Source: a bacterium
GTDB lineage: Bacteria; Planctomycetota; Planctomycetia; Planctomycetales; Planctomycetaceae
Direction of reading: 5' to 3'
DNA length: 64,000 nt
NCBI GenBank assembly: GCA_016125225.1
Contig: WGME01000026.1
Location: 1-64,000 of the forward strand
Numbering within the stretch: position 1 is the first letter of the stretch; the number at the start of each line of letters is the position of its first letter. Shown in pieces: positions 2,758 to 51,805 of the stretch. Below the pieces are notes generated by a model. That model was not told the origin of the DNA and did no database searches. It was given only the letters and a program-made list of their open reading frames with translations. The position numbers and the translations under genes were made by a program.

Positions 2758-2810
2758 GGCTGAGTTGTTCCGTCAGAGGGAAGTGACTGAGTAGCAAACG
2801 AAATCGGCGT

Positions 2811-3725
2811 TTACTGGGCTTCCAGCGGGACAACTAATCCCAAATCGACCAGCTTCGCCCGGCATTCGTCCCGCTCACGAGAGCGTGTGAGTCCCTGCCA
2901 TGTGGCATCCTGCACGGCCATGAAGTCGTCTTGCGAATAGGGCGGGGCCTTGCCCGCAGCTCCACCTTGAGCGGTAAGCCGTTGAATAACGCCGCGTTCC
3001 AGACGGCTTAAGGTTCCCCCTTCCAGGCGATAATCTTCAAAGGCTTCCCAGGCGACGGGGAAGAGCGGTTTGACGATTTGATGACCAATCGTCGAGGCAT
3101 AGAGCCGAATTTCTTCCTGGGCGTGGCTATCCATCCGGAGAGCCAGGAAGTGGAACAGGTTATGGAGATCGACTTTCCAGTAGGCTTCGGTGTAGGTCGA
3201 CAGGGGCAGATCTTTGCGGGCCTGTTCGCGGGACACGCCAGCGGCCAGTCGTTCTTCGTAGACCTTGCGGGTCTGTTCGAGCAACGCCTGTTCCGAGGCG
3301 GTCAGTTGCTGACCAAGGTCCGGCGGCAACACGCCGTCACTCCCCTGGCGATTCGAGGTCGCCTGTGTCCGCCAGTGATCGGGCTCGGTTTCCTGAGCCG
3401 CATCGATCGCCACGGAATATCGCGTGCTGTATTCGTTGATGTTCGCGGTGCGATGCCGGACCCATTGCCGCCAGCAATCCATGGGGACGCGGACGAGAAT
3501 TTTAATTTCGGCCATCTCGAACGGGGTCGTATGCCGATGCCGCATGAGGTAGCGAATGAGCGTGCGGTCGTCGGAGACTTTTTTCGTGCCTTCCCCGTAG
3601 CTGACGCGGGCGGCCTGGACGATCGAAGAATCGTCCCCCATCACGTCGACGAGGCAGACAAACCCATCGTTGAGAACGGGGAACTTCTTCCACCGGAGTT
3701 CTTGAAGCAAGGCAGAATCAGACAT
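2811..3725 (-). CDS. thyX: Flavin-dependent thymidylate synthase ThyX
   Basis: 304 residues from the ATG at 3725 (MSDSALLQELRWKKFPVL); the frame is open to 3767, but that extension is not family-like. The ThyX signature RHRTANINEYSTRYS lies at about residues 90-104. It is preceded by MRHRHTTPFE, the FAD/dUMP-binding segment, and followed by the conserved YTEAYWKVDLHNLFHFLALR block. ThyX makes dTMP from dUMP with methylene-tetrahydrofolate and FAD as hydride carrier, replacing ThyA. The C-terminus is longer than in compact ThyX proteins. It lies 53 bases upstream of the methyltransferase gene on the same strand. Confidence 0.95.
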   Translation of the reverse strand: MSDSALLQELRWKKFPVLNDGFVCLVDVMGDDSSIVQAARVSYGEGTKKVSDDRTLIRYLMRHRHTTPFEMAEIKILVRVPMDCWRQWVRHRTANINEYSTRYSVAIDAAQETEPDHWRTQATSNRQGSDGVLPPDLGQQLTASEQALLEQTRKVYEERLAAGVSREQARKDLPLSTYTEAYWKVDLHNLFHFLALRMDSHAQEEIRLYASTIGHQIVKPLFPVAWEAFEDYRLEGGTLSRLERGVIQRLTAQGGAAGKAPPYSQDDFMAVQDATWQGLTRSRERDECRAKLVDLGLVVPLEAQ

Positions 3726-5742: not shown

Positions 5743-6027
5743 ATGAAGTGGGCGCTAAGGGCAATTCTTGTCTCGTTGGTCATGCTGTCCGCCGGAAGCT
5801 CGGCTTTCGCCGCTGGTGAAGGCCAGCCTAGCGACTGGGCTCGGTTCTACTACTATCCGTATGTGTACTATCCGCACAACTTTCAGGCTCCGCAGCAGTA
5901 CAATCACCTGTACTACCGCTACCCCCAGAGCCGTCAGATTCCGGTCTACAACAAAGACTGGCACAACTTCTATCCCACCGCTCGTCCGTATCACACGGGA
6001 TCACACTTCATTCTGGACGTGTTCTAA
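5743..6027 (+). CDS. Small secreted Tyr-rich protein
   Basis: 94 residues from the ATG at 5743, with an AGGAGAG ribosome binding site at 5731-5737. A signal peptide is clear (lysine, then LRAILVSLVMLSAGSSAFA, cleavage near residue 23-25). The mature part of about 70 residues is rich in Tyr, Pro, His and Asn (RFYYYPYVYYPHNFQAP, QYNHLYYRYPQ). No enzyme motif is visible. Similar short Tyr-rich exported proteins are common in planctomycetes but have no known role; a cell-surface or structural role is a guess. A palindromic hairpin with T-run follows at 6057. Confidence 0.75.
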   Translation: MKWALRAILVSLVMLSAGSSAFAAGEGQPSDWARFYYYPYVYYPHNFQAPQQYNHLYYRYPQSRQIPVYNKDWHNFYPTARPYHTGSHFILDVF

Positions 6028-6056: not shown

Positions 6057-6091
6057 GAGGCCCGGGGATAACCATCCTTGGGCCTCTTTCA
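6057..6091 (+). terminator. Palindromic repeat copy 1, terminator-like
   Basis: GAGGCCCGGGGAT pairs with ATCCTTGGGCCTC around the loop AACC, with two G-T pairs, and is followed by TTTC. It is a diverged member of the palindrome family also seen at 24073, 46913 and 50560. It lies between the small secreted protein and recO, so it can end transcription of the former. Confidence 0.6.
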
Positions 6092-6112: not shown

Positions 6113-6856
6113 ATGTCAGCAGAGAAGACCGACGGCCTGATTTTACGAGTGACCGACTTCAGCGAAACCAGTCGCATTGTGGTGCTGTTTACGCGGGAAT
6201 TCGGAAAGATTTCTGCACTTGCCAAGGGGGGCCGACGGCTCAAAGGCCCCTTCGAGTCTGCTCTTGACCTCCTTTCAAATTGTCACGTAGTGTTCCTCCG
6301 TAAATCCTCGTCGGGTTTGGATCTGCTGACGGAAGCCCAGTTGATTGACCGGTTTCGTCCGCAGGAGCGTGACCTGACGTGCCTGTATGCTGGTTACTAT
6401 GTCGCAGAACTTTTGCAGAACCTGACCGAAGAATACGACCCGCATCCAGAGCTGTATCAAGCAGCCCTGGAAGCTCTGGAAGACTTCCGGCAAACGGACC
6501 AGATGCGTCGCGGGGTGTTACGCTTTGAACTGGTCATGCTGCGTGAAATGGGACAATTGCCCGACTTCGAAACCTGTGCCGCATGCGGCGGGGAATTGAC
6601 GGAGGGCCGAACGTTTGGCTTTTGGGTCTCGCAAGGGGGGCTGGTTTGCCCGGAGTGTCAACGGGAAGAATACAGCCAGATCACGATTCATGCCGGATCG
6701 GCCGCCGTACTCCGACGGTTGTCCGGCACGGGGGGAGAGAGTTGGCGACGACTGGAGTTGTCGCCGCAACAATACAAGGAGCTGAAACGTGTCACGACAG
6801 CAGCCATTTCGCATGTGCTGGGACGCCGTCCGAAAATGCTGAGTTACCTGCCGTGA
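6113..6856 (+). CDS. recO: DNA repair protein RecO
   Basis: 247 residues, the usual RecO length. The N-terminal OB fold begins with TDGLILRVTDFSETSRIVVL and contains KGGRR, the DNA-binding stretch. The helical middle part has YYVAELLQNLTEEYDPHPEL. A zinc-binding site follows: CAAC at 155-158 and CPEC at 179-182. RecO helps RecR load RecA onto SSB-coated single-stranded DNA in RecF-pathway repair. recR is not nearby. Confidence 0.95.
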   Translation: MSAEKTDGLILRVTDFSETSRIVVLFTREFGKISALAKGGRRLKGPFESALDLLSNCHVVFLRKSSSGLDLLTEAQLIDRFRPQERDLTCLYAGYYVAELLQNLTEEYDPHPELYQAALEALEDFRQTDQMRRGVLRFELVMLREMGQLPDFETCAACGGELTEGRTFGFWVSQGGLVCPECQREEYSQITIHAGSAAVLRRLSGTGGESWRRLELSPQQYKELKRVTTAAISHVLGRRPKMLSYLP

Positions 6857-18334: not shown

Positions 18335-18358
18335 TTTCCGCTGTGAAATGAGAACGTC

Positions 18359-18396
18359 AAACACCCCGCATCAACCAGATGTGGGGTGTTTGTGTT
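18359..18396 (+). terminator. Rho-independent terminator after the S41 protease gene
   Basis: AAACACCCC at 18359-18367 and GGGGTGTTT at 18383-18391 pair perfectly; GCAT/ATGT extend the stem around the loop CAACCAG, and TGTTT follows. The A-tract before and T-tract after could make it work in both directions. Confidence 0.85.
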
Positions 18397-20579: not shown

Positions 20580-20600
20580 CCACCGGTCATTGACCGGTGG
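20580..20600. repeat. Perfect 10-bp inverted repeat
   Basis: CCACCGGTCA and TGACCGGTGG flank a single T. No T-run follows on either strand. It sits 36 bases downstream of the DUF1501 gene end and upstream of the orphan pair. It resembles the REP-type palindromes moved by Y1 transposases, or an operator; only one copy was noticed. Confidence 0.5.
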
Positions 20601-24009: not shown

Positions 24010-24072
24010 GAGATTCCTTAGCTGCTGAGTGCTGACCCATTCTTTGAAGATGATGAACACGAGGCTATGGAA

Positions 24073-24105
24073 GCCCAGGGATAGCAATCCCTGGGCGTCT
24101 TTTTC
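24073..24105. repeat. Palindromic repeat copy 2
   Basis: GCCCAGGGAT at 24073-24082 pairs with ATCCCTGGGC at 24087-24096 around AGCA. A T-run (GTCTTTTTC) follows on the plus strand only, although the genes on both sides are transcribed from the minus strand. Confidence 0.75.
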
Positions 24106-24217: not shown

Positions 24218-26272
24218 TCATGTCTGAAACAGATTCCGGCCGGTCATGGTCGAGGGGGCTGTGATGCCAAACTGGGCCAGGATGGACGGAGCCAGGTCGA
24301 TCAATGTGGGAGCCGTCTGTTTCAAGGGCTGGTTGCAGCACAGTAACCCCGGCACTTCCGACGCATCGCAACAATGGTCGGCGGACCATGCTGAATCGTT
24401 ATCGAGCAACACGTCTTCGGTGAGATCGCCCAGACAAGTGGCCCAGGATGCCCGATACCCCCGCGCATAACCAATGACAAGATCGGGAGCCAGGGCTGTC
24501 GCCTGCCCCGAGTAGACCTCATCGGCCCGATAGACTTTGCGGATCACCGGTTGATCGTTGAAGTCACGCACCCCTTCGAGACCCTGAACCAGTTCCTGCA
24601 ATAGCGCCTGCTGTTCTTCGCACGGTTCCACGATGCCATCGCGTTCGCGGCCTTTGAGATTCAGATACAACCCATTGATGCCAAGTCCATAAGCGACCGT
24701 TTGCGACCAGTCGCAATTCTGCAGGATTGAGGTGCAATCGGTCGGTCCGAGATAACCGAGGTCGCGCAGCCACGAATTGAGATTGAACTGGCGACCGAAG
24801 TTCGAGAAGCCATGATCACTCATGACCACAATCGTGGCTTTGTCGCCATAGCGGTCGTTGAGATCGCCGATCACCTGATCGAGTTTCTGATACAGGCGTT
24901 GAATGTGCTCGTAAAAATGGACTGCTTCGGCCGGGGCCCGTAACGGGTGGGGATCATCGGAGTCCCACCAGAACATATGTGATTGCAGGTCGCTACTGGA
25001 GAAGTAGAAGAAGAGCAGGCCGTCTTCGTAATGGTTGACCGCATACTCGAACAATGCCAGGCGTTCTTCCAGCACCTGCTGTGTCTGGCGGACATAGTCG
25101 TCATCGGAAAAGACGCCGTTGGAACGGGCCTTGTGGTCTTCCTGGAAGCCGGTGGTAGCGAAGAGCCCGAGTTCCTGCGAAATGTCAGTCGCAAAGGTCT
25201 TCGGTTCAGAAATGGTGACGGCCGGGGCGGAAGGATCGATGTTAACCGGTGAGACATACAACCGGAAATTGGGTTGCACTTCCTGCACAAAGAAGCGGGC
25301 GAGGCCGGTGATGTGCTGGCTGGGGAGCGGACTCGGCGAACTGAGCGCGAACGGAAGTTGCACCCACGGACTCCAGTCGCCCGCTTTGAGCGGGATGCGT
25401 TTTGATCCCAGATCGATGACGACAGAGTTCGCCGCGCGATCACGATAAACCCGCACCTGGCAGGTAACCGGACGCGGTTCGCGCAACAGCGAATTCTCCG
25501 GTCCCATGATGTCGATCGTCGCGGCATCCTGCTCGAAGATCACACGAGTCCGGCGGCCGCCCCCTTCTTCCACGCCGGAGAACGGCACATCCTCGGCAAA
25601 GTACTGGTAGGTGCCATACGAGCCGAGCAGGTCAGGTGTGCCCATGCCGCTCAGGCAGCGATGATGTCCGTACTGTGAAGGAGACGGCGGATAGTTCGAC
25701 GGGAGATCGTAAAATGTGGTCGGAATGCCTTGGGCATCGAGAAAATCCCAGAACGGCACTCCCTGACGCTTCAACACGGTCTCGGCCGGATGATGATTGA
25801 ACGGCCAGAAATCGAGTTGCAACCGATGATCGCCCCAGTTCCAGCCCGCTTCCGCGGGTAATGTTTCCGCTGCTGAAAAGAACGGGGCACATTGCCGCTC
25901 TGGATGGCGATGAATGAAGTCGAACAAACCATGCGAACCCGGTCCGGCGCCGTTAATGAAACTCGCCCAGGCGACGGGGCTTTGTGGCGGAATCGATGTG
26001 CCGAGCGGGCTGAATGTTCCCTGCCGGCTCATCTTCGACAGATTCGGCAAGCGGCCCGCCTGCATCATCGTGGCTGTGAGCTTGGGGTCCATGCCATCGA
26101 TGCCGATGACGATCACTTTTTTACCGAGGCTGCGCGAAGCCCGTGCGCCGCGGCCGATCCAATAGGCCGAGCCACCGGCTCCGAGTGCGGCCAAACTACC
26201 GATGCCCGCCGTCTGCAGAAACTTCCGGCGTGTTGAGGTGCGGCTGTTCGTGGGTTTCGGTTCGGACGACAT
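24218..26272 (-). CDS. Tat-exported AP-superfamily phosphodiesterase/nucleotide pyrophosphatase
   Basis: 684 residues with a twin-arginine leader (STRRKFLQTAGIGSLAALGA). The type I phosphodiesterase pattern is VIGIDGMDPKL (metal Asp at about 58), QSPVAWASFI with the probable Ser nucleophile near 98, VVMSDHGFSNFGRQF (metal Asp-His at about 485) and SADHCCDASEVPG. The family cleaves phosphate or sulfate mono- and diesters with two metal ions. It starts 1 base after the stop of a paralogue, forming a tight pair. The substrate is unknown; export suggests work on an envelope or extracellular polymer. Confidence 0.88.
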   Translation of the reverse strand: MSSEPKPTNSRTSTRRKFLQTAGIGSLAALGAGGSAYWIGRGARASRSLGKKVIVIGIDGMDPKLTATMMQAGRLPNLSKMSRQGTFSPLGTSIPPQSPVAWASFINGAGPGSHGLFDFIHRHPERQCAPFFSAAETLPAEAGWNWGDHRLQLDFWPFNHHPAETVLKRQGVPFWDFLDAQGIPTTFYDLPSNYPPSPSQYGHHRCLSGMGTPDLLGSYGTYQYFAEDVPFSGVEEGGGRRTRVIFEQDAATIDIMGPENSLLREPRPVTCQVRVYRDRAANSVVIDLGSKRIPLKAGDWSPWVQLPFALSSPSPLPSQHITGLARFFVQEVQPNFRLYVSPVNIDPSAPAVTISEPKTFATDISQELGLFATTGFQEDHKARSNGVFSDDDYVRQTQQVLEERLALFEYAVNHYEDGLLFFYFSSSDLQSHMFWWDSDDPHPLRAPAEAVHFYEHIQRLYQKLDQVIGDLNDRYGDKATIVVMSDHGFSNFGRQFNLNSWLRDLGYLGPTDCTSILQNCDWSQTVAYGLGINGLYLNLKGRERDGIVEPCEEQQALLQELVQGLEGVRDFNDQPVIRKVYRADEVYSGQATALAPDLVIGYARGYRASWATCLGDLTEDVLLDNDSAWSADHCCDASEVPGLLCCNQPLKQTAPTLIDLAPSILAQFGITAPSTMTGRNLFQT

Positions 26273-43897: not shown

Positions 43898-44169
43898 ACT
43901 GACGATTCCGTGAAGTTTTACGATCAGGCTGAACAAACCTGTGCCATCTTGGCGCGCACTATTCGCTGAAATACCCGGCAGCCAATGTGCGATTTCATCA
44001 GTATACCAGATCATTCTGCGGGAATGCGGTACGACCCCCGGGAACTGGCGGGGGTGGAATGCCGGTTGCTGCAGCATTTTTTCCCGTACCCGCGTAAAAC
44101 GTCCGCGCATCGTCTACCATTCTGGTGTTTGACGAATCCATTTTCACCGATGGCGAATGTGACCGACTG

Positions 44170-46905
44170 ATGACCACCTCGACACCGCTGCAGCTCGACA
44201 TTGAACTTCTCTTTGGTCTGTTGGATACCGTGCTGGAAGAGCAGCATGGACCTGAGGCCGTAAAGCTCTTGAAACAACTCCGTGGACTGGCGAAAGAACG
44301 CCGGGTCGGTGTGCCTGGAGCGGGAGATCGCCTGGTCTCCACGATTCATGGCCTCGATGAGGGGCAACTCACCACGGCCGTCCGTGCTCTGAGCATTTCC
44401 TTTGACCTAGCCAACCTCGCGGAAGATCTGCAGCGTGTCCGCGTCTTGCGTGACCGGGAAACCAGTTCACCGAAAGTCCCCCGCAAAGAATCGGTTGGTG
44501 ATGGCATTCGTCGACTGGCTGCGGCTGGGTTATCCGCGAGTGCAATTCAGGATCTGCTCAATCAACTCCGGATCGACCTGGTCTTTACGGCCCATCCCAC
44601 CGAGGCCAAACGCCGGACGACCCGCCGCGTCTTGAGGCGGCTGCGGGAAACCGTGCGGGATATGTCGACGCCGACCGCTGATGCCAGCGAACTGTTGAGC
44701 AATCTGACGTTGTTATGGCAGGTCGATCCGATCCGCCCTACGCGGCCCACGGTCATGAATGAACTCGATCGGGGGTTGTTCTTCTTCGATAACCTTTGGG
44801 AAGTGATCCCCGAACTGCGTCGTGACCTGCGGACCGCGTTGGCCGAAGCCTACCCCGATCAGACATTTCAGATCCCCGCCTTTGTGACATTCGGTTCCTG
44901 GATCGGCGGCGATCGTGACGGCAATCCGTTTGTGACGGCCGAGGTCACCGGCCAGGCATTAGAACGCCTGAGGCGTGCGGCGATCGAACGGCATCTCGGT
45001 GTCTGCCAGAGTCTGATTCAACTGTTGGTCATGTCGTCGCACTCCGTGGTTGTCGAATCCGAACTCACCGAAGCCCTCAAAGCCGCGATGAAGAAGTCAT
45101 CAGCGATCAAAGAAGCCGTATCGGGTGTCGCGGAGGTCGAAGTTTACCGCCGCTGGTTGAAGGTAATTCAGGTACGTCTGCAATCGACTCTCGCAGCCGC
45201 CAGTGGCACACAATCCGAAGGGATCATGTACCGCGATGCCCATGAACTTTCGGCTGATGTGCAATTGCTGGCTGACAGTCTGACTCAACACAAAGGTCAG
45301 CGGATTGCCAGGTCCTTACTCGATGCCTGGCTGGACCAGATTGAAACGTTCGGTCTGCAGTTCGCGGCGCTCGATGTGCGGCAGGATTCCCGTGTGCATG
45401 TCGACGTGCTCAAGGAAGTCTTTGCCAAAACCGGCCAATGTGCGGACTATGCCACCGCATCGGAAGCCGAGCGGTGTGAGTTGTTGACCACGGAACCGAC
45501 CGTCGGCAATGAAATTCTGCAAGGACTCTCGGAACAAGGGCGTGAAACCTTATCCCTGTTCAAACTGCTGGTGCGGATCGTGCGGGCGCACGGTGTGGAA
45601 CGGCTGGGCGGCCACGTCATCAGCATGACGCATTATCCCAGCGATCTGCTCGCCGTGTTGTGGTTCTGGAAATGGGCCTGGAAAGCGACGCCGGGCGATG
45701 GTTCCCGCAAGCTGACTTATCTGCCGATCATCCCGTTATTTGAAACGATTGATGACCTGCGGCGTGGTCCCGAAATTCTGACCGATTTGCTGGCGATTCC
45801 GCAGTATCAGGAATACCTGCGATCATCGACGACTGGCCAACCGACGCAAGTGGTGATGGTTGGTTATTCGGACAGCACAAAAGACGGCGGCTATCTCGCG
45901 GCGTGCTGGGGACTGTATCGCGTGCAGGATCGGCTGGCCGAAGTCGCCAGCACGAATGATCTGAAGCTGGTCGTTTTCCATGGGCGGGGTGGTGCGTTGG
46001 GCCGCGGTGGTGGTCCGGCTGCTCGAGCCATTCTGTCGTTGCCTCCCAAGTCGGTCGGTGGAGCCCTCCGCATGACCGAGCAGGGTGAAGTCCTTGCCGA
46101 ACGATATGACGACCCGCAGATCGCCAAACGGCATCTCGAACAGGTGACTTGGGCGACCATGCTGGTCTCGGCTGAGCCACAACCCGTGGTGGAATCATCG
46201 TGGCGGGAACTTGTCGACCGCATGTCGGTCAGCTCGTTCCAGTTCTATCGCCAACTGGTCGAACATCCCGGGTTTCTCGCCTACTTCGATCAGGCGACGC
46301 CGATCTCTGAGATTGAACGGTTGCCGATCGGTTCGCGTCCTTCTCGTCGACGGGAACGCAAATCGTTGTCTGACTTGCGAGCCATTCCCTGGACGTTCGC
46401 CTGGACCCAAAGCCGCCAGTTCCTGCCCGCCTGGTATGGACTCGGTACGGCCCTGTTGGCGGAAGCCCAAACCGACGGGGATAGCTGGACGACATTGCAA
46501 CTGTTGTATGGCCGCTGGCCGGTCTTCCAGGCGATGATCGATAACGCCGTCCTCGCCCTGGCCAAGGCCGACCTCGGTATTGCCCAGCGGTATGCCGAAA
46601 TGACCCCGGCCGACAGTCCGGCCCGTCAGGTCTGGTCGCTCATCGAAGCCGAATTCCACCAGACGAAAGCCGCCGTGTTGATGATCACCGGCGAGCCGGA
46701 ACTGCTGGCCAACACGCCTTGGCTGCAGCGCTCGATTCAGGAACGCAATCCCTCGGTCGATCCGCTTAACCTGATCCAAATCGAACTCATCAAACGCATG
46801 CGGACTGCGATGGACGGTGGCGACGAAGAAACCGCCACCCGCCTCGGTGAACTCGTGCGGCTGACCATTCAAGGAGTCGCGTCTGGCTTGCGAACCACGG
46901 GTTGA
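44170..46905 (+). CDS. ppc: Phosphoenolpyruvate carboxylase
   Basis: 911 residues from the ATG at 44170 (MTTSTPLQLDIELLFGLLDT); a GTG at 44125 would add 15 residues. PEPC signatures are all there: VFTAHPTEAKRRT with catalytic His at about 142, GSWIGGDRDGNPFV at about 242, VMVGYSDSTKDGGYLAACW at about 568, FHGRGGALGRGGGPA near 605 and the terminal IQGVASGLRTTG. It adds bicarbonate to PEP to make oxaloacetate, refilling the TCA cycle, in the cytoplasm. The length is normal. The regulatory aspartate/malate site is not assessed. Confidence 0.97.
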   Translation: MTTSTPLQLDIELLFGLLDTVLEEQHGPEAVKLLKQLRGLAKERRVGVPGAGDRLVSTIHGLDEGQLTTAVRALSISFDLANLAEDLQRVRVLRDRETSSPKVPRKESVGDGIRRLAAAGLSASAIQDLLNQLRIDLVFTAHPTEAKRRTTRRVLRRLRETVRDMSTPTADASELLSNLTLLWQVDPIRPTRPTVMNELDRGLFFFDNLWEVIPELRRDLRTALAEAYPDQTFQIPAFVTFGSWIGGDRDGNPFVTAEVTGQALERLRRAAIERHLGVCQSLIQLLVMSSHSVVVESELTEALKAAMKKSSAIKEAVSGVAEVEVYRRWLKVIQVRLQSTLAAASGTQSEGIMYRDAHELSADVQLLADSLTQHKGQRIARSLLDAWLDQIETFGLQFAALDVRQDSRVHVDVLKEVFAKTGQCADYATASEAERCELLTTEPTVGNEILQGLSEQGRETLSLFKLLVRIVRAHGVERLGGHVISMTHYPSDLLAVLWFWKWAWKATPGDGSRKLTYLPIIPLFETIDDLRRGPEILTDLLAIPQYQEYLRSSTTGQPTQVVMVGYSDSTKDGGYLAACWGLYRVQDRLAEVASTNDLKLVVFHGRGGALGRGGGPAARAILSLPPKSVGGALRMTEQGEVLAERYDDPQIAKRHLEQVTWATMLVSAEPQPVVESSWRELVDRMSVSSFQFYRQLVEHPGFLAYFDQATPISEIERLPIGSRPSRRRERKSLSDLRAIPWTFAWTQSRQFLPAWYGLGTALLAEAQTDGDSWTTLQLLYGRWPVFQAMIDNAVLALAKADLGIAQRYAEMTPADSPARQVWSLIEAEFHQTKAAVLMITGEPELLANTPWLQRSIQERNPSVDPLNLIQIELIKRMRTAMDGGDEETATRLGELVRLTIQGVASGLRTTG

Positions 46906-46912
46906 TCACTGA

Positions 46913-46942
46913 GACGCCCAGGGATTGCAATCCCTGGGCGTC
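46913..46942. repeat. Palindromic repeat copy 3, perfect 30-bp palindrome
   Basis: GACGCCCAGGGATTG is followed at once by its exact reverse complement CAATCCCTGGGCGTC, with no loop. No T-run follows. It lies 8 bases after the ppc stop and before the HD-domain gene. It belongs to the same family as 6057, 24073 and 50560. Confidence 0.8.
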
Positions 46943-47006: not shown

Positions 47007-48413
47007 ATGGTCCGCGATTTCGTCAATGAGTCACTGTCTCACGATCCCATTCACGGGTATATCCCGTTCATTGCGCGCAGCGGTCTGCCCGAAGGTGAAG
47101 TCGCCGAGCAGGACATCATCGACCATCCGTGGGTGCAGCGGATGCGACAGATTCACCAGCTGCAAACGGCCTGGTGGGTCTTTCCGTCAGCCGAGCACAT
47201 GCGGTTCCAACACATCCTCGGCGCAATGCACCTTGCCTCGCTGGCGACCGAGCATTGGTACGATTCGCTGGTCGAAGCCTGCCGCAATGTCCCTTCGCGG
47301 GCCTACGTCGAATCACTCCTGCGAATGGCGGCACTGCTGCACGATGTCGGTCACGGTCCATTCGGCCACTTCTTCGACGATCATTATCTTGAACAATTTG
47401 GCATCACGCATGAAACCATTGGTGGTGTGATCATCGAACAGGAACTCAGCGATCTCTTACGTAAGATTCGCCGGAATCCGCGTGGGCAGCTGCAGCCTCT
47501 GGAAGAACTCGATCCGGCACAAATCTCGTGGCTCATCCGGCGACCACGACCGGGCACCGCGGGCGAGGAAGGCCATCCCGACTGGTTGAAGAAACTGCGG
47601 TCGCTGTTCAGCGGTATCTACACCGTCGACAATATGGACTTCGTGCTGCGCGATGCCTACATGACTGGCTACAGCACCAAAGCCTTCGACATCTCCCGCA
47701 TCTTGCATTACTCGTTCTTCACGCCGGCCGGCCTCACCATTCATGCACGGGGCATGCAGACACTGATTCACTTTATCGAAACACGGGCCAATCTGTTCCG
47801 CGCGGTCTATTTCCATCGCACGGTCCGTGGTCTCGATCTCGCCTTGGAAGACCTGTTCCCCGAAACGATGCCGCACCTGTTCCAGGGCAATCCCATCGAG
47901 AACCTCACGGCGTATCGGCACTTCACCGAATCGAGTTTTCTGGTCGATGTTCATCGCTGGGCTGATGCTACCGATCCCGCATTGCACTCGCTTGGTCAGA
48001 AGTGGCAGTTGATTCTGTCGCGACAGATGCAGTGGAAAATGGCCTGCGAAAAGACACTCCACTTCCACACCGGCACCGCCGAGCGCACTTCGATCTTCTC
48101 GGCCCCCGATCTCGTCATGCATCGCTTGCGGGAAAAACTCCCGAAGGCGATCCGCGAGATTCCCTTGAAGATCGACGTGGCTCGGCACTATCACCGTCCG
48201 AGTGGACGGTTGCCAGCCGGTGGTCAGAACTATCTGCTTGACCCATCACTCGGCGATACGCAAGAACTGCACGATGACGAGTTGTTCCGAGCCCTCCCGG
48301 TGAGCTTCTGCATCTTCCGCGTCTATTCGAAAGACCATCAATACGATGCCGCAGTGACGAAAGCCTTGAATTCCATCCTCGGTGATGCCGTGGACGCAAA
48401 GACGAATATGTGA
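47007..48413 (+). CDS. HD-domain phosphohydrolase (dGTPase-like)
   Basis: 468 residues from the ATG at 47007 with GGAAGGA upstream. The HD motif is in LLRMAALLHDVGHGPFGHFF at about 104-124, with an earlier His in PSAEHMRFQHILGAMHLASL and a later Asp in YTVDNMDFVLRDAYMTGYST. RMRQIHQLQTAWWVFPSAEH matches the SAMHD1/dGTPase-type start (R-L-x-x-I-x-Q). The family splits dNTPs to nucleosides and triphosphate or hydrolyses other phosphate esters. The long C-terminal part (about 270-468) is less conserved. Cytoplasmic. Confidence 0.85.
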   Translation: MVRDFVNESLSHDPIHGYIPFIARSGLPEGEVAEQDIIDHPWVQRMRQIHQLQTAWWVFPSAEHMRFQHILGAMHLASLATEHWYDSLVEACRNVPSRAYVESLLRMAALLHDVGHGPFGHFFDDHYLEQFGITHETIGGVIIEQELSDLLRKIRRNPRGQLQPLEELDPAQISWLIRRPRPGTAGEEGHPDWLKKLRSLFSGIYTVDNMDFVLRDAYMTGYSTKAFDISRILHYSFFTPAGLTIHARGMQTLIHFIETRANLFRAVYFHRTVRGLDLALEDLFPETMPHLFQGNPIENLTAYRHFTESSFLVDVHRWADATDPALHSLGQKWQLILSRQMQWKMACEKTLHFHTGTAERTSIFSAPDLVMHRLREKLPKAIREIPLKIDVARHYHRPSGRLPAGGQNYLLDPSLGDTQELHDDELFRALPVSFCIFRVYSKDHQYDAAVTKALNSILGDAVDAKTNM

Positions 48414-49962: not shown

Positions 49963-50538
49963 ATGACTTACAAAGTTCTGATGCCGATCGGTGATGCCAC
50001 CGAAGTGATGGACACCCTGTACCCCTACTTCCGCTTGCCGGAAGATGGATTTGAAGTGGTGGTCGCCGGGCCGGAAGCGCGGAAGTATCACGGTGTGATG
50101 CACGAGATTCCGCCCGATGCCAGCATTCCGTGGGACATCACCCGCGAACAGCCGGCGTACCACATCCAGGCGACGGTGGCCTTCCGTGATGTGAACCCAG
50201 CGGACTATGTCGGCCTGTTTCTCTCAGGCGGCCGAGCCCCGGAATACATCCGCTATGACCAGCATCTGCTCAAACTGACGCAGCACTTCTTCAACGAGAA
50301 GAAGCCCATCTGCAGTGTCTGTCATGGTGTCGAAATCGCCGCGGCCGCCGGCTGCATTAGCGGTCGCACCCTGACGTCGGTTGCCAAGTGTGCGCTTGAT
50401 ATCACCTCGTTCGGCGGGAAGTATGTGAACGCGGCGGTGCATGTGGATGACAATCTCATCAGCGGCCGCACCTGGCACGATAACACACCGATGATGCGGG
50501 AGTTCGTCCGTGCATTGAAAGAGTATGTCGCGCGCTAA
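49963..50538 (+). CDS. DJ-1/PfpI-family protein
   Basis: 191 residues. The family's nucleophile elbow is ICSVCHGVEIAAAAG with Cys120. VLMPIGDATEVMDTLYPYFR is the first strand-loop, YVGLFLSGGRAPEYIRY the oxyanion region with the G-G-R motif, and DDNLISGRTWHDNTPMMREF the end region with a His near the active site. Members are cysteine peptidases, glyoxalases, deglycases or chaperones. No signal peptide, so cytoplasmic. A strong hairpin terminator follows at 50560. Confidence 0.9.
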   Translation: MTYKVLMPIGDATEVMDTLYPYFRLPEDGFEVVVAGPEARKYHGVMHEIPPDASIPWDITREQPAYHIQATVAFRDVNPADYVGLFLSGGRAPEYIRYDQHLLKLTQHFFNEKKPICSVCHGVEIAAAAGCISGRTLTSVAKCALDITSFGGKYVNAAVHVDDNLISGRTWHDNTPMMREFVRALKEYVAR

Positions 50539-50559: not shown

Positions 50560-50595
50560 GAGGCCCAGGGATCGCTATCCCTGGGCCTCTTTTTT
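50560..50595 (+). terminator. Palindromic repeat copy 4 acting as terminator
   Basis: GAGGCCCAGGGAT and ATCCCTGGGCCTC pair perfectly (13 bp) around CGCT and are followed by six Ts. It lies between two converging genes, so it ends the DJ-1 transcript. Confidence 0.85.
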
Positions 50596-50614: not shown

Positions 50615-51805
50615 TTACCAACTCGGTTTCTCCGGCGGTGGCGGCAGCTCTTCGTAGCCGCGTCGGTCGAGCTTGCGGATTTCGGCGACGGTCTCGGTGA
50701 CATCGCCGTTCATGCTGAAGGGTGACGGAACTTCGCCGCCATCAAACTGGGTGTCGCTTGTCCGCGATGCCTGTGCTATGGCCAGCGTCTCCTTCGCGAT
50801 CTGCGGGACAGCGGCGGCCATCATCTTCGGGAAGTGACCAATCGCCGCCGAACGCCAGTCGTCGCCGGTCTCCAACCGCATGGTCAAGACTTCGGCCTTC
50901 AATACCTGGGAAGCAAACTCTTCGATCGAACCGGCCCCCTGCGAGGCATCCCACGGTTTGGCGGCCATTTGTAGTCCATCACGCAAACTTTCGGCGACCG
51001 GCTGGGCTTTGTCGGACCAGACGATTTCCGATTGCCCGGCAGATTGCACATGAATGATTCGTTGCGGCTTAAAACGGTACAGCACCTCCAGCACGGCCCG
51101 CGTTTCGGGTTCGCTCGCCGGTCCTGGACCGGACGATTCGCCGGGGCGATATCCCGCCGTGGGAAAGTTCTGATTGAGATTCACGCCATGATCATTGGCC
51201 AGTGACTTTACAGTCAAACCGTCGGGATTGGGATCACGCAGTAAGACAATTTGACGGCCCTGTAGCATTTCCGGTGCGTCGCCCAATTGCTGACTGAGGC
51301 TGTCGATCCATTTCACCGCGATGCGGTCGTCGCCGTTCAGACCGCAGACAATCAGGGAGAGTTCCCCGGCATTGCCGTACTTGCGGATGTGAATCGGTTT
51401 GCCCTTCACACTGTAGCCGACGATTTCCCAGGGCGACGCCACAGGTTTGGTGGCTGGTGGCTTGGCAGCGATGGTTTCCGGTTCCCGCGGGACCGGGTTG
51501 GAAATAGTGAGGGTGGGAATGCGGCCAGAAGAGACCACACCGTCAGCGAGTCCCAGATCGATGACTTGCCAGACGGGTTCCGGGCCTCCGCTGGGAGGCG
51601 AATGGATCACCCGCTCTTCGTGATCGGATTCCACATGGATCACCGGCCTGGCCAGAGTGATCGCGGAAGACTCCGCTTGATCCGAAACAATCTCGGAGGG
51701 AGACACTTCGGTTGGTGGTTGTGAGAGTTCATTTTCGCGCTGGACCAGCGCGGCGGACACGGCGACAAACAACACCGTGGGCGCAATCCACAAAGACAGA
51801 CGCAT
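50615..51805 (-). CDS. Degenerate M14 carboxypeptidase-like secreted protein
   Basis: 396 residues from the ATG at 51805 with GGAGG. Signal-anchor: LSLWIAPTVLFVAVSAALV. A disordered Pro/Glu-rich segment of about 100 residues comes before a domain with M14 (zinc carboxypeptidase, MpaA-like) landmarks: SLIVCGLNGDDRIAVKWID, LLRDPNPDGLTVKSLANDHG, VNLNQNFPT and RIIHVQSAGQSE. The first zinc pair H-x-x-E is replaced by N-G-D-D, so metal binding is doubtful. It may bind rather than cut peptides. Confidence 0.65.
   Translation of the reverse strand: MRLSLWIAPTVLFVAVSAALVQRENELSQPPTEVSPSEIVSDQAESSAITLARPVIHVESDHEERVIHSPPSGGPEPVWQVIDLGLADGVVSSGRIPTLTISNPVPREPETIAAKPPATKPVASPWEIVGYSVKGKPIHIRKYGNAGELSLIVCGLNGDDRIAVKWIDSLSQQLGDAPEMLQGRQIVLLRDPNPDGLTVKSLANDHGVNLNQNFPTAGYRPGESSGPGPASEPETRAVLEVLYRFKPQRIIHVQSAGQSEIVWSDKAQPVAESLRDGLQMAAKPWDASQGAGSIEEFASQVLKAEVLTMRLETGDDWRSAAIGHFPKMMAAAVPQIAKETLAIAQASRTSDTQFDGGEVPSPFSMNGDVTETVAEIRKLDRRGYEELPPPPEKPSW

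Follow-up and report, generated by a model that had tools for sequence, protein, structure and literature searches.

A REP-like palindrome dispersed through a planctomycete genome and most likely moved by a divergent HUH/Y1 transposase

Introduction

Four hairpins in a stretch of 64,000 nucleotides of planctomycete DNA (the window) are, in our reading, copies of a REP-like, non-autonomous palindrome that is moved most likely by a low-copy, divergent transposase of the HUH/Y1 type, and we put the probability of this reading at roughly 0.8. The palindrome is dispersed through the genome, is biased in its location, occurs inside genes and stands on both sides of the transposase gene, and the similarity of the hairpins tracks that of the transposases. 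Transposition by this protein family, here called P0014 after its member in the same genome, and the chemistry involved would follow by analogy with TnpA-REP. REP systems described in the papers cited here rest mostly on a GTAG guide beside the hairpin, and the set described here is one without that guide. Transposases and hairpins that change together across distant planctomycetes form naturally matched sets with which site choice by single-strand transposases can be tested. The palindrome also supplies an environmentally common phylum with terminator-like hairpins and with peptides inserted in frame, and it accounts for repeats that annotation leaves without a name.

Results

The palindrome unit and its copies in the window

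The unit is 30 bp long, with the consensus GA[A/C]GCCCAGGGAT-NGCN-ATCCCTGGGC[T/G]TC. All four hairpins of the preliminary description were found where it had placed them (Table 1). They had been said to share one core, which is exact in three copies; the copy at 6057 has decayed and carries two core mismatches, both of them G.T pairs on the + strand (GCCCGGGGAT/ATCCTTGGGC). The copy at 46913 had been described as having no loop, and here the description was mistaken: the loop is TGCA, which is self-complementary, so that the palindrome is continuous. The stems do stay paired within the core, as had been claimed, but the copy with its core at 24073 has an A.G mismatch directly outside it (GAA...GTC). 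Chance does not account for the similarity of the four hairpins: at up to one mismatch, the window contains 16 arm matches, while 5.35 were expected and the maximum in 100 shuffles was 11. As RNA, all four fold strongly (z -3.5 to -6.4).

Table 1. Positions of the palindrome copies, the transposase gene and other repeats; window positions count from the first letter of the window, the others are given by genome (G000) and contig (C).
Feature	Sequence	Position	Context and properties
Palindrome copy, decayed	window	6057-6086	between + strand 94-aa ORF (5743-6027) and + strand recO-like gene (6113-6856); RNA fold -26.3 kcal/mol, z -4.1
Palindrome copy, exact core, loop AGCA	window	24070-24099 (core 24073-24096)	behind - strand phosphodiesterase-like gene (24218-26272); RNA fold z -3.5 (+ strand), -3.8 (- strand)
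Palindrome copy, exact core, loop TGCA	window	46913-46942	13-bp stem GACGCCCAGGGAT; starts 8 nt past stop codon of PEP carboxylase gene (44125-46905), followed by HD-domain gene at 47007; RNA fold -30.5 kcal/mol, z -5.6
Palindrome copy, exact core, loop CGCT	window	50560-50589	13-bp stem GAGGCCCAGGGAT, then TTTTTT; between convergent genes, DJ-1/PfpI-like (49963-50538, +) and peptidase M14-like (50615-51805, -); RNA fold z -6.4
P0014 gene	G000:C27	934671-935210	180-aa protein; outside the window
Palindrome copies flanking P0014 gene	G000:C27	934656 and 935237	581 bp apart
Second palindrome family, L172	C27	55338
Second palindrome family, L188	C27	364831/364901
Second palindrome family, L202	C27	646888/646944
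Possible second-family repeat	window	20580-20600	CCACCGGTCATTGACCGGTGG-CTAAGAC
Y1_Tnp locus L167	G000:C3	52000-58300	gene at ~2800-3400 of the locus
Distant P0014 homologue, L168	G000:C19	32000-37500	hairpin at 2325 of the locus
Strongest window hairpin	window	18358-18392	CAAACACCCCGCATC...GATGTGGGGTGTTTG

The consensus extends a short way beyond the core. In the 70 flanks of the 35 exact copies of the genome, G occupies position -3 in 65, A position -2 in 66 and A or C position -1 in 63, and positions -4 to -8 carry less than 0.3 bit. The conserved G and A are paired, facing the C and T of the opposite arm. The loop reads NGCN in 32 of these 35 copies. In every one of them each strand has two of its three reading frames open, the third being closed in some, and in 14 copies all six frames are open. 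A scan of the window with Rfam returned no family at gathering threshold, and no paper among the matches listed names the palindrome; supplements lay outside the scope of that search, which does not establish absence from print.

Copy number, chance controls and distribution

A genome-wide count of the motif, proposed in the preliminary description as a check, bore out the idea of a dispersed family. The genome containing the window (G000; 6.35 Mb in 42 contigs) holds 35 exact cores of the form GCCCAGGGAT-loop-ATCCCTGGGC and 101 dispersed palindromes with a 4-nt loop and at most three mismatches; the reversed control pattern gave zero in both counts. The arms are almost always paired. On both strands of 864 kb there are 22 exact arms, of which 16 make 8 exact pairs, 4 stand opposite an arm that has mutated and the remaining 2 have no partner arm at all. 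A DNA uptake sequence was rejected on these grounds, two true single arms on both strands comparing with about 1.4 expected per strand.

The case for compensating changes in the stems, which had been taken as a sign of selection or spread, is weaker genome-wide: 64 copies offer 640 pair positions, of which 599 show no change, 7 have changed on both sides, 25 belong to the wobble class and 9 fall elsewhere. We also looked for strand-asymmetric wobble as a sign of selection at the RNA level, and in the sense orientation G.U pairs numbered 10 and A.C pairs 6 (p=0.45). Given this result, compensation alone is no proof of RNA-level selection.

The palindrome is patchily distributed. Exact matches occur in 5 of 59 relatives (own genome included), with 35 in G000, 14 and 4 in congeners and 1 each in two others, and in a set of 294 phylum genomes of 90% completeness or more, G000 among them, 5 have the palindrome (35, 5, 4, 1 and 1 copies). 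At least 100 loci in GTDB species genomes carry it; among the matches listed, 93 are titled as planctomycetes, and the 7 others include Omnitrophota, Synergistales, Nitrospira, Bacteriovoracaceae and two Vicinamibacteraceae. Distant planctomycete lineages thus share the core, yet most of the genomes sampled lack it.

Copies lie behind genes and, in frame, within them

Positions were classified with a simple codon-usage gene caller, which makes the gene ends approximate, for 64 matches in G000, drawn from 864 kb taken whole (the window and 800 kb of contig C27) and from loci chosen for holding copies. Of these, 23 lie between two + strand genes, 15 between two - strand genes, 14 between convergent and 4 between divergent genes, and 8 inside called genes, including a three-mismatch match at C27:592954 that may be due to chance. 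Divergent gaps are avoided, with 4 of the 56 intergenic copies against 33% of intergenic bases (p=6e-6), and convergent gaps are enriched, with 14 of the 56 (p=8e-4). The excess at gene 3' ends that the preliminary description had suggested looking for is therefore strong. The same arrangement was seen for 103 copies in 100 loci of other genomes, where 27 are convergent, 47 co-directional, 4 divergent, 15 inside genes and 10 undetermined, and where the co-directional copies lie at a median of 33 nt past the upstream stop codon and 82 nt ahead of the next start.

Since the unit length of 30 bp is divisible by three and each strand offers two stop-free frames out of three, a copy can sit inside a gene. 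Several conserved genes carry in-frame copies, among them leuS of G000 (L035) and uvrA of the congener G001. The cysS gene has an in-frame copy in G001 and a decayed one in G000, and ubiD has in-frame copies in G001 and in a further congener, G002, and a decayed one in G000. Further hosts in other genomes are carB, from a record whose title reads Vicinamibacteraceae, mnmG, and genes for an aldehyde dehydrogenase and an epimerase, among others. All three frames are used, giving AQGxxSLG, PGxAIPG and PRDGxPW. A set of 15 in-gene calls was checked apart from L043, L057, L091, L097 and L129, and one of them, L120 (P0013), looks like a spurious antisense ORF. Compared with solved homologues, the CarB copy falls within 18 extra residues, the LeuS copy within an unaligned stretch of about 34 residues and the MnmG copy in a loop that is longer by about 6 residues; in UvrA (L162, G001:C55) the aligned core stops where the palindrome sits. 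The L162 frame itself is UvrA-like and at least 1698 aa long; its UvrA-type halves are repeated and its C-terminus is extended. No clean net insertion is seen in CysS, UbiD or the aldehyde dehydrogenase, where the copy lies in a loop of variable length, and a search of CysS and UbiD orthologues for clean empty sites found none because the palindrome occupies variable loops. No clean empty site with a target duplication was recovered.

The UbiD copy is shared by all three congeners and absent from G003, and the CysS copy is shared by G000 and G001 and absent from G002 and G003, so that these in-gene copies are a mix of shared and private ones. Within the genus we also compared gene ends through BLASTP best-matching genes (46-92% identity), which covers part of G000. 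Two further copies are common to congeners (L152 with L040, L164 with L027), and the bases around them have diverged. At the G000 end matching L150 an unrelated hairpin stands instead of a copy; the end matching L159/L165 has a pair of tagged repeats from another family; and the G000 ends that correspond to L158 and to either gene of L160 have no family copy within about 200 nt. The preliminary description named, as grounds for refuting it, copies confined to orthologous places in relatives with no mobility signature, and this is not the pattern, some being shared with congeners and others absent at matching gene ends.

These positions raise the question whether the hairpins are ordinary intrinsic terminators, whose common sequence would come from gene conversion or from a sequence preference of the host termination machinery. 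Stable hairpins soon past stop codons, the avoidance of divergent and enrichment of convergent gaps, the two convergent genes of L160 that each have their own copy, and the unrelated hairpin of a congener at one matching gene end are all as expected of terminators. T runs follow some copies, such as TTTTTT at 50560 in the window, and no T run is found at either side of the copy at 46913; over 38 copies, the mean T content in 12 nt is about equal on the two sides (4.7 sense vs 4.3 antisense). In most terminator-like hairpins of G000 the stem is unrelated to that of the palindrome, which accounts for 15 of the 60 strong 3'-end hairpins in 864 kb, and the family is therefore one hairpin type among several. 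Terminators of the ordinary kind would also fit poorly with in-frame copies within genes, with a presence in 5 of 294 phylum genomes and with the transposase link described below, and we consider this explanation unlikely. A terminator role for copies of a mobile palindrome is nonetheless plausible, by analogy with REPs in other phyla, which in the excerpts of Di Nocera et al. 2013 (PMC3733652) are also located behind genes.

The palindrome flanks a divergent transposase gene

The P0014 gene of G000 lies between two palindrome copies (Table 1). Among 100 loci fetched with the palindrome, six have a P0014 homologue within about 50 nt of it (L048, L051, L107, L111, L123 and L126). Protein searches found homologues, most of them distant, in 20 of 59 relatives (E<=0.001, own included) and in 13 of 392 phylum genomes (E<=1e-15, own included), with 1 to 4 matches each. 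G000 has one close copy of the gene vs 101 palindromes, and G002 (64% complete) has 4 palindrome copies and no close P0014 homologue.

Homologues found by protein rather than by palindrome are in many cases likewise flanked by hairpins. We considered 25 loci, made up of the six best of the relatives search and 19 new ones from the phylum search, a set that leaves out L244 and the weaker relatives matches. In the 24 with enough flank (L272 having too little for the both-sides count), a strong hairpin stands upstream of 18, downstream of 17, on both sides of 14 and on neither side of 3; ten thus lack one on at least one side, 3 of those on both. Among 130 control genes of similar size, drawn from G000 only, a strong hairpin stands upstream of 8, downstream of 23 and on both sides of 3.

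The flanking hairpin differs by lineage and often keeps an outer AAGCCC. The similarity of hairpin arms correlates with that of the transposases (r=0.62, n=20, p=2e-4, palindrome-selected loci excluded), and also within the close clade (r=0.32, n=14, p=0.002). For these correlations arms were read by eye, L270, L272, L273, L280 and L286 were dropped for want of a clear hairpin, and several loci share a genome. For three genomes the hairpin read beside the gene was predicted to be dispersed in its own genome, and the prediction held in two of them. That of G203 occurs 26 times there, counting the 2 copies flanking the gene, and in none of nine other genomes; that of G051 occurs 5 times in G051, again counting 2 at the gene, and in none of nine others. 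The prediction failed for the variant beside the G001 gene (CCCAGGGAC, searched with the outer G-C pair), which is not dispersed, with no match in G001, 4 in G051 and 1 in G000; the G001 copies by the transposase gene have an imperfect outer pair. In seven homologues (L051, L123, L269, L275, L276, L278 and L282) a palindrome lies inside the transposase gene, past the HUH strand. Quite different palindromes, for example CCAAGGCGACGAC... and AAGCCGGAGCC..., stand on both sides of the distant homologues L242, L243, L244, L279 and L284, and the arrangement of a flanked gene is therefore wider than the GCCCAGGGAT family. Directly upstream of another distant homologue, in L168, we noted a very long near-perfect hairpin (GCCCGCAGCGCCAGCAAGGGCGA...).

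A transposase of the RAYT type had been named in the preliminary description as something to look for beside the repeats. A protein of the HUH/Y1 type that resembles a RAYT does lie between palindrome copies, here and in other planctomycetes, but it is not a canonical RAYT. The latter was rejected as the mover, no palindrome copy within 5 mismatches being present at the Y1_Tnp loci examined (2 of 4 matches in G000, 1 of 9 in G001 and 7 from other genomes). Those examined in G000 and G001 carry other hairpins nearby, and we accordingly regard the system as RAYT-like.

P0014 itself matches no Pfam family and no relevant PDB sequence, and among NCBIfam models only an unrelated weak one. As a family, however, the proteins align with Y1 transposases (hhalign 97%, E 7e-11). 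When eight members were scanned with PF01797, three scored above cut-off, three below, and two, P0014 included, had no match; four of the five members given match NCBIfam REP_Tyr_transpos, all below cut-off. An AlphaFold2 model of the member at L111 is of moderate confidence (pLDDT 67.7, pTM 0.67), and its best solved matches in Foldseek are IS608, the hairpin-bound E. coli TnpA-REP (4er8) and ISDra2 (prob 0.92-0.98, E ~0.02). HxH is found in 31 of 31 rows of the protein alignment, which leaves out the frameshifted L107, and Y[IV]xxH in 29, the other two (L051 and L283) being truncated. There is also a conserved N-terminal WLPGDPRG region. Alignment and model together give the P0014 family a predicted HUH/Y1 transposase fold, and its members are putative enzymes.

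An HUH/Y1 protein with hairpins at both ends, and a fold nearest to IS608, ISDra2 and TnpA-REP, would also suit a true IS200/IS605-like insertion sequence whose ends are the hairpins and whose MITE-like leftovers are the dispersed copies. We regard this as quite improbable, since G000 has no multi-copy full element and a single close gene for its 101 palindromes, the 13 matching phylum genomes hold only 1 to 4 matches each, the dispersed copies are mostly single palindromes instead of LE-RE pairs, and the class 1 signature Y---Q is absent, Y+4 being H and not Q. Two half sites of 10 nt, separated by a variable centre of 4 nt that usually reads NGCN, would suit a DNA site bound by a chromosomal protein dimer with a role in architecture, repression or replication. 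We regard this as highly improbable in view of spacers of 2, 3, 5 and 6 nt in other genomes, some of them non-planctomycete, a position tied to gene 3' ends and not to promoters, and a sequence that changes with the neighbouring transposase lineage.

Discussion

If the palindrome is a REP-like element moved by the P0014 family, the transposase would most likely recognise the hairpin as single-stranded DNA, as TnpA-REP does, and by the same analogy it may cut and rejoin at the hairpin foot, which would scatter the copies. Copies would survive where they are least harmful, that is behind stop codons and, in frame, in variable protein loops, and many of those behind stop codons could act as terminators or as 3'-end mRNA hairpins.

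The closest comparison is with the REPtron and its TnpA-REP, class 2 in the excerpts of Quentin et al. 2018 (PMC6006769). The traits in common are many dispersed, mostly extragenic palindromes, a low-copy, flanked Y1 HUH gene with HUH motif and catalytic tyrosine, one palindrome type per transposase, a location at 3' ends and intragenic copies; a palindrome within the transposase gene is also described there, for subclass 2.4. In contrast to class 2, 29 of 31 rows have H at Y+4 and Y---NP is absent, no GTAG/GTGG tetranucleotide stands at the hairpin foot, the stem is symmetric, and the P0014 family has its conserved N-terminal WLPGDPRG region. Class 3 (TnpA-Y1) is described in the same excerpts as found mainly in Planctomycetes, Acidobacteria and Proteobacteria, a host range to be set beside P0014 searches made within Planctomycetota. 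It resembles the P0014 family in its atypical dispersed flanking hairpins and extended N-terminal conservation, and differs in its signature (YV[VI]xEQ, Y----Q, against Y[IV]xxH) and in its CnGA foot, the conserved GA here being paired stem and C standing at -5 in 20 of 70 flanks. The signatures given there for class 1 (Y---Q), class 2 (Y---NP) and class 3 (YVxxEQ) all fail to fit Y[IV]xxH. The element appears to work like a REP and the protein to resemble TnpA-REP; we do not place the system in class 2 or class 3, whose motifs and hairpin feet were tested and are absent.

Three other systems share some traits. In TIRtrons, genes for tyrosine transposases (TIRYT) are flanked by long inverted repeats, sometimes self-complementary, that form modest repeat families, and R. 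baltica is noted as rich in such genes and flanking repeats (Di Nocera et al. 2013, PMC3733652, in excerpt). TIRYT probably corresponds to subclass 2.1 (Y---NP, no REP found) according to the excerpts of Quentin et al. (PMC6006769). The GGGGWSAS motif of TIRs (PMC3733652) is absent from our 30-bp consensus, a weak exclusion in that only some TIRs share it. Rickettsia palindromic elements (RPE), as excerpted from PMC10969869 and PMC3733652, also place in-frame palindromes in unrelated housekeeping genes; they are, however, about 150 bp long, against 30 bp here, and the present palindrome has a linked transposase family. The CGTC REPs, including RPE-4 and RPE-6, are said in the same excerpts to lack a dedicated transposase. 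With IS200/IS605 (class 1) the HUH/Y1 fold and the hairpins at both ends are held in common.

A broader proposal, which we put forward tentatively and at somewhat less than even odds, is that Y[IV]xxH marks a fourth branch of Y1 single-strand transposases, scattered through Planctomycetota, that moves symmetric palindromes without a guide tetranucleotide. The same hairpin would then form on both strands, REP and inverted REP would be indistinguishable, and the cut site would have to be chosen by another rule. A 30-bp unit open in two of three frames might in turn let the host make transcript ends and in-frame peptide insertions in essential proteins.

G000 also carries other repeats. Contig C27 bears a second family of palindromes, GCCCCCGGTNNNNNACCGGGGGC, which is tagged with GTCTTA/TAAGAC and sometimes closely paired (REPIN-like), and a related repeat in the window possibly belongs to it (Table 1). 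The L167 locus has a Y1_Tnp gene (E 1.7e-25) and, close to it, the hairpins CCCCAGGCGTGAGCCTGGGG, with GTAG in front, and CCCCACGCTCACGCGTGGGG; it is apparently a RAYT/REP system of its own. The hairpin that ranks strongest in the window is of the ordinary terminator-like kind and lies outside the family.
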